This document shows, one piece after another, positions 48,346 to 49,022 of a stretch of 64,000 bases of DNA. Source of the stretch: Nitrosospira sp. Nsp11 (lineage in GTDB: Bacteria > Pseudomonadota > Gammaproteobacteria > Burkholderiales > Nitrosomonadaceae); contig NZ_FRBV01000003.1 in assembly GCF_900142705.1 (NCBI RefSeq), forward strand, positions 1-64,000, read 5' to 3'. Each line of letters opens with the position of its first letter. Position 1 is the stretch's first letter. The position numbers and the translations under genes were made by a program. Below the pieces are notes generated by a model that made no database searches, had not been told where the DNA came from, and was given only the letters and a program-made list of their open reading frames with translations.

Positions 48346-48369
48346 ATGGAAAGAGATAAGGGGAAATAA
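48346..48369 (+). CDS. Possible 7-aa leader ORF overlapping the adk start
   Basis: ATG GAA AGA GAT AAG GGG AAA TAA encodes MERDKGK. AAGG and GGAG sit upstream (48334-48342). Its stop TAA shares the final A with the ATC proposed as the adk start (TAATC), the geometry of a TAATG coupling site. It is the only ATG near the start of adk. Confidence 0.4.
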
Positions 48370-49022
48370 TCATAATTGTTCTATTAGGCGGCCCCGGCGC
48401 GGGAAAAGGGACGCAGGCCAATTACATCAAGGAACATTTCGGCATTCCCCAGATATCCACGGGCGACATGCTCCGCGCGGCAGTCAAGGCGGGTACCGAA
48501 CTGGGTATCATGGCCAAGAAAATCATGGATGAGGGTGGGCTGGTTTCCGATGACATTATTATCGGGCTGGTCAAAGCGCGCATTGCACAGCCCGATTGCG
48601 TAAAAGGTTTCCTCTTCGACGGTTTTCCCCGCACCATTCCCCAGGCGGATGCAATGAAGGCCGCCGGCGTACCCATCAATTTTGTGATCGAAATTTACGT
48701 GCCTGACGAAGAGATCATCAGGCGCTTGTCGGGCCGGCGCCTGCATCCCGCCTCGGGCCGTATTTATCACGTGATATTCAATCCGCCCGCCATGGATGAG
48801 AGAGACGATGTAACCGGCGAGCCACTGATACAGCGCGACGATGATAAAGAGAGAACCGTGAGGAAACGGCTGGAAACCTATCATGCCCAGACCGAACCAT
48901 TGGTAGAATATTATGCTAATTGGTCAGCCAACGGCGGAAGGGGCGCCCCCAAGTACGTCAAAATAGCGGGGGTAGGATCGGTAGAAAATATTCGCGACGC
49001 CATTTTTGCTTCACTAAAATAA
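48369..49022 (+). CDS. adk: Adenylate kinase, apparently with an ATC start codon
   Basis: 217 aa, interconverts ATP + AMP and 2 ADP. P-loop GGPGAGKGT (7-15), [24 protein letters not shown] and the lid region ([19 protein letters not shown]) are all present. Placing ATC 48369 as codon 1 aligns the protein residue for residue with the E. coli N-terminus. The frame is closed by TAA at 48357-48359 and has no ATG, GTG or TTG until ATG 48468, which would delete the P-loop. Other candidate codons are ATA 48366, ATA 48372 and ATT 48375. A GGGG five bases upstream could be the ribosome site. A sequencing error is the main alternative. Confidence 0.85.

Follow-up and report, generated by a model that had tools for sequence, protein, structure and literature searches.

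Translation initiation at codons outside the AUG, GUG and UUG set is destabilised by initiation factor IF3, and Escherichia coli infC, which encodes IF3 and starts with AUU, is autoregulated by this means, according to the excerpted text of PMC5472188. The same excerpts describe Streptomyces sigR, which has a GTC start (GTC in 32 of 34 species, GTT in two), a strong ribosome binding site (RBS) and repression by IF3. In Staphylococcus aureus, the available part of PMC13009471 lists ccpN and citZ with AUA starts and cvfC1 with an AUU start; in poor medium these AUA/AUU starts gave about 10% of the output of AUG, ccpN and cvfC1 have an extended Shine-Dalgarno (SD) sequence, and the ccpN start is common to Bacillus subtilis. 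The abstract of PMC13398362 reports an AUU start for Borrelia burgdorferi pncA (BBE22), a gene annotated too short in databases. In these partial sources, starts of what we call the AUH class (AUC, AUU or AUA; ATC, ATT or ATA in DNA) and similar codons belong to only a few genes, and infC, sigR and ccpN among these are regulators. Among the matches listed in searches of the PMC literature, there was no report of a noncanonical adk start, and none of an AUH start kept across nearly a whole family in another core enzyme of metabolism.

The window analysed here is a stretch of 64,000 nucleotides from Nitrosospira sp. Nsp11, and all its features discussed below lie on the forward strand. The adenylate kinase gene, adk (48369..49022), has a frame bounded by TAA at 48357-48359, followed by GGG GAA ATA and then ATC at 48369-48371; the codons after the ATC are ATA ATT GTT CTA TTA GGC GGC CCC. 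From the TAA as far as ATG 48468 the frame holds no ATG, GTG or TTG. This first canonical in-frame start is the 34th codon counting from the ATC and lies past the P-loop, so that an Adk begun there would be without it. Read from the ATC, the protein has 217 residues, scores 354.9 bits against NCBIfam NF001379 (cut-off 268) and carries the P-loop GGPGAGKGT, which conforms to G.PGxGKGT; the curated-model score and the P-loop together identify it as an adenylate kinase. Its PDB matches are adenylate kinases, and it is the one adk match in this genome. The alignment with E. coli Adk (1ake) matches the third residues of the two proteins, which places ATC 48369 at the Met1 position. An earlier note on this DNA had described both the frame bounds and the alignment with Met1 of known adenylate kinases correctly. 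An SD sequence, AAGGGG (48358..48363), stands 5 nt before the ATC, with a duplex energy of -8.4 kcal/mol. The ATA at 48366 is a further in-frame near-start, 2 nt from the SD; the codon at its place is variable across the family (ATA in 14 of 121 loci, ATC in 30, GCT in 29 and eleven other codons in the rest).

To this locus we compared 125 genomes of the Nitrosomonadaceae, searched with the Adk protein; 121 gave a match and four gave none, and the DNA before adk was read in all 121. The alignment of related adk starts that the earlier note had proposed as a check found ATC (67 genomes), ATT (37) or ATA (17) at the site in every one, and none of the 121 had ATG, GTG, TTG or CTG at the Met1 position. 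By genus, the codon was ATC in 23/23 of g1, ATA in 8/8 of g2, ATC (44) or ATT (37) in the 81 of g3, and ATA in 9/9 of g4. Two adk pieces of G124 (L153 and L202, both ATA) were counted as one genome, and the locus of G122 (L105), which lay outside the reach of the first motif, proved to be ATA on separate reading. The count excludes a second, divergent copy in G079 (contig C32, L201; 45% identity, ATG); this genome has 6% contamination, and the copy is probably foreign. Outside the family (128 loci, 122 once repeats were removed; of these, 37 were chosen from 36 other families within the order), 120 of the 122 distinct loci had ATG. The other two were a GTG (L265, in G130) and a CTA (L281, in G153), the latter of which may reflect a different start or damaged sequence. 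In another collection, of named records, the best 80 of 585 loci comprised 13 with AUH and 67 with ATG, and the AUH loci among those 80 were from Nitrosovibrio, Nitrosospira, Nitrosomonas or uncultured organisms. The family genomes are related, and the conservation amounts to far fewer than 121 independent facts. With AUH in 121/121 genomes, ATC 48369 is neither chance nor a base-call error, and the simple alternative of the earlier note, a G-to-C error or mutation of an original ATG, falls.

This is a start other than AUG, GUG or UUG to which there is no general alternative: no ATG, GTG or TTG lies between the upstream stop and the Met1 site in 83 of the 121 family loci. In 35 loci the stop is at most six codons upstream with no NTG whatever in between; six of these are also without any other ATH, and in L165, where the stop lies two codons before the site, only ATC ATT remain. 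Of 120 loci, 1 has an ATG, whatever its frame, at a distance of 12 bases or less from the site. The AUH codon is preceded by a strong or extended SD, with a duplex of at most -6 kcal/mol in 117/121 family loci compared with 66% of 125 outgroup loci with ATG; the means were -8.67 and -7.46 kcal/mol, respectively (Mann-Whitney p = 1.1e-4, uncorrected for relatedness).

The canonical codons found upstream in frame in the remaining 38 loci lie at 20 different distances and look mostly incidental. Eight g3 loci have a TTG at -8, and in those displayed the SD sits between the TTG and the AUH. In four further g3 genomes (G064, G069, G070 and G093; L189, L162, L188 and L186), a GTG stands four codons before the AUH, whose own SD has been lost (-0.9 to -1.8 kcal/mol). 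No other family locus is short of a strong SD, and the GTG in these four lacks a good one too. From this arrangement, the start in these four has probably shifted to the GTG at -4. The loss of the SD in the same loci that carry the GTG is as expected if SD and AUH are otherwise kept together, and it indicates that a return to a canonical start is possible. A GTG at -2 might serve as the start in G020, but the SD suits the ATC better (-7.9 versus -4.2 kcal/mol). As judged from sequence, the AUH start is thus the best supported in about 116-117 of the 121 genomes.

In a protein tree of 241 sequences (L202, L203, L153 and L201 were left out), the 119 family tips group as a single clade that contains no outgroup sequence. 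On the family nucleotide tree, Fitch parsimony required at least 10 start-codon changes, all within ATC/ATT/ATA and none to G, so the noncanonical nature of the start has been conserved through change. With three equally likely targets, zero of 10 changes to G would have a probability of about (2/3)^10 = 0.017, real rates being unequal. In the 17 ATA genomes a single A-to-G transition would make ATG. In the reading that we favour, adk of this Nitrosospira is translated from AUC at 48369, and the family has inherited its AUC/AUU/AUA start from an ancestor and retained it by selection; to this reading, with the weak, IF3-sensitive initiation proposed below, we give a probability of about 0.7.

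The infC start is ATA in this genome and in all 30 family loci read (59 genomes had a match); in the wider order it is ATA or ATC in 25 of 28 loci from other families, read by eye, the N-terminus motif being unmatched in the other three. Since the class of the infC start extends to the wider order, it is the older of the two, and adk would have acquired such a start at the root of the family. A probe for the initiator tRNA gave one match in the genome, with anticodon CAT (CAU), and we rejected a variant initiator, with the proviso that a very different tRNA would escape the probe. We surveyed 795,898 bases (24.8% of the genome; contigs C1, C2 and C30, 4,656 bases together, were outside the survey) and scored, for 576 genes, how much coding sequence lies before the first canonical start. 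Of the 22 stretches listed by length, adk came first (35 codons), whilst infC, which served as the internal positive control, was 15th (14 codons); by eye the other 20 had ordinary starts. A first, smaller survey (464,000 bases, 292 genes) had placed adk second (score 6.1), behind a gene that has a plausible GTG start (6.2). The sensitivity is modest, as genes with a canonical codon within 12 codons of the true start are missed. General laxity of start codons in this genome was rejected on the grounds that only adk and infC stood out by eye among the 576 genes.

The region before adk also has features of its own. A motif, TGCGnTATAAT (at most two mismatches), precedes adk in 117/121 family loci, compared with 6/124 outgroup loci and 8.7% of shuffles, and its TATAAT begins 82-93 nt before the start codon in the middle half of loci. 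The form in the window is TGCGCTATACT, with a -10-like TATACT at 48288..48293 and a -35-like TTCAAG (48264..48269) 18 nt before it; the pair was not among the listed sites of a generic scan for consensus promoters. Given the motif conservation, transcription of adk probably begins at a promoter of its own, which would give a leader of about 70 nt. Within this leader, a hairpin is predicted at 48323..48342 (CTCTGCCT-TATA-AGGTGGAG), in which a T-to-C change in the nearest relative converts a U-G pair to C-G. In a survey of 22 hand-chosen loci, a hairpin of -7.5 kcal/mol or stronger stood shortly before the SD in 14 of 16 from g1, g2 and g4 (the exceptions were L083, -6.3, and L088, -3.1). The six g3 loci folded gave two strong hairpins further upstream (L134 and L119) and four weak ones (-3.3 to -7.0). 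As these g3 loci have no hairpin of comparable strength at that place, we rejected it as a family-wide regulator, and in these predicted folds it is an accessory. Hairpins stand just before the adk SD at 48323-48342 in the window and in L084, L090, L102, L104, L143, L164 and L196; in several loci U-rich sequence follows, as in an intrinsic terminator, and a role as attenuator or RBS protector is possible. An Rfam scan of 47900-49100 gave no match at the gathering score, and a known cis-regulatory RNA was rejected.

Upstream of adk lies valS (45359..48184), matched in that place in 21 of 23 loci of the genus, and downstream a pfp-like phosphofructokinase (49377..50636), found there in 48 of the 50 loci examined, a set that contains outgroups and some genomes more than once. 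Named from their translations, the genes from 45359 to 52745 form a row of valS, adk, a PPi-type phosphofructokinase and a proton-pumping pyrophosphatase, which brings AMP and PPi handling together; adk followed by the phosphofructokinase also occurs in some outgroups.

The proposal that the ATC is a sequencing or assembly error, or the landing point of a -1 shift from a short upstream open reading frame (ORF) into adk, draws on the single base that separates ATC from ATG and on the GGGG at the junction. It is refuted by the family comparison, in which the same codon class recurs in 121 genomes whilst the short ORF exists in two, and we put its chances at next to nothing. Because ATC, ATT and ATA all encode isoleucine, the codon might alternatively be an internal Ile of an Adk that begins upstream in frame. 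The 38 loci with an upstream ATG, GTG or TTG would allow this, and it is probably true in the four GTG genomes; with canonical starts it is impossible in this genome and in the 83 loci that have none, L165 leaves only its ATC ATT, and the alignment places the site at Met1. We rejected an upstream start for this genome and most others, and consider it very improbable as an account of the window. The short ORF itself (48346..48369) runs for seven codons from ATG to a TAA at 48367-48369 that overlaps the ATC by one base. The earlier note had pointed to this TAATC overlap as the geometry of a reinitiation site, where ribosomes would end the ORF at TAA and restart at the ATC. The geometry is as it described and, in this genome and its nearest relative, is accompanied by a good SD before ATG 48346. 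As a general mechanism reinitiation did not hold up: the identical ORF occurs in the nearest relative (G001, L082) and at no other family locus, and a stop overlapping the adk start codon occurs in 14/121 loci, all in g1, of which 11 have some ATG, GTG or TTG in the overlapping frame. Stop-start overlap with an upstream ORF, as in TAATG-type coupling, is therefore not conserved. Moreover, the SD of the seven-codon ORF is inside the predicted hairpin, which leaves the adk SD free. An ORF in two genomes cannot explain a family-wide codon, and whilst reinitiation may add something locally in this genome, we judge it improbable as the explanation.

A more serious competitor is that an ancestral change from AUG to an AUU-type codon was tolerated with no regulation attached. 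Tolerance could be explained by the strong SD and by a need for little Adk; the single origin, in a clade without outgroup members, fits this, as do the four genomes that have apparently moved to a GTG start. What such an accident accounts for poorly is that at least 10 later changes at the third base never restored the G, even in the 17 AUA genomes. We regard it as unlikely, and prefer the selectively kept AUH start.

The combination of an AUH codon, a strong SD and no return to AUG, which is the anatomy of the known cases, leads us to take the adk start as a selected weak start, probably subject to discrimination by IF3; the IF3 step and the benefit to the cell are inferred by analogy. Here, fMet-tRNA (anticodon CAU) would pair with the first two bases of AUC, and the third-base mismatch would make initiation weak and open to rejection by IF3, which the strong SD would partly offset. 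Adk output would be kept below the AUG level and would increase, as would that of infC with its AUA start in the same family, whenever free IF3 is scarce relative to 30S subunits. Dependence on IF3, one of the possibilities raised in the earlier note, is the most likely idea. Only third-base variants were found, and selection for weakness alone might be expected to give other weak codons also. Tentatively, adk and infC could form a pair read by IF3 in the Nitrosomonadaceae, with Adk synthesis following the amount of free IF3 per 30S subunit. If true, the adenylate balance (AMP, ADP and ATP) would be directly linked to the capacity for translation in these ammonia oxidisers, which grow slowly and are limited by energy.

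Adenylate kinase is essential in E. coli, and here a core enzyme has an AUH start across a family, and none of the genomes read has gone back to AUG at the site. The more than 100 natural variants, together with the small group of apparent GTG starts, offer a natural experiment on IF3 versus SD in start choice. There is also a warning for annotation, as calling starts at ATG, GTG or TTG only would strip the P-loop from this genome's Adk.

Compared with the systems described at the outset, as far as the partial sources cover them, adk is like infC in its AUH start (AUA in the infC of this family), with IF3 discrimination known for infC and proposed here for adk; unlike infC, adk is a metabolic enzyme gene that does not encode IF3 and has no autoregulatory loop. 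With sigR it shares a conserved noncanonical start and a strong RBS, but sigR is a regulator with GUC for which the PMC5472188 excerpts give a demonstrated IF3 effect, whereas adk is a core enzyme with AUH for which that effect is our suggestion. As described in the part of PMC13009471 available, ccpN, cvfC1 and citZ have starts of the same AUA/AUU class, ccpN and cvfC1 likewise with an extended SD; ccpN is a regulator, however, and the citZ start a variant of one strain lineage, whereas adk is a core enzyme with the start family-wide. Borrelia pncA is also a metabolic enzyme with an AUH start, although its AUU comes from one organism and the abstract of PMC13398362 makes no mention of family-wide conservation. 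The start class itself is already known, and adk is a genuine, nearly family-wide case of it in a core enzyme.
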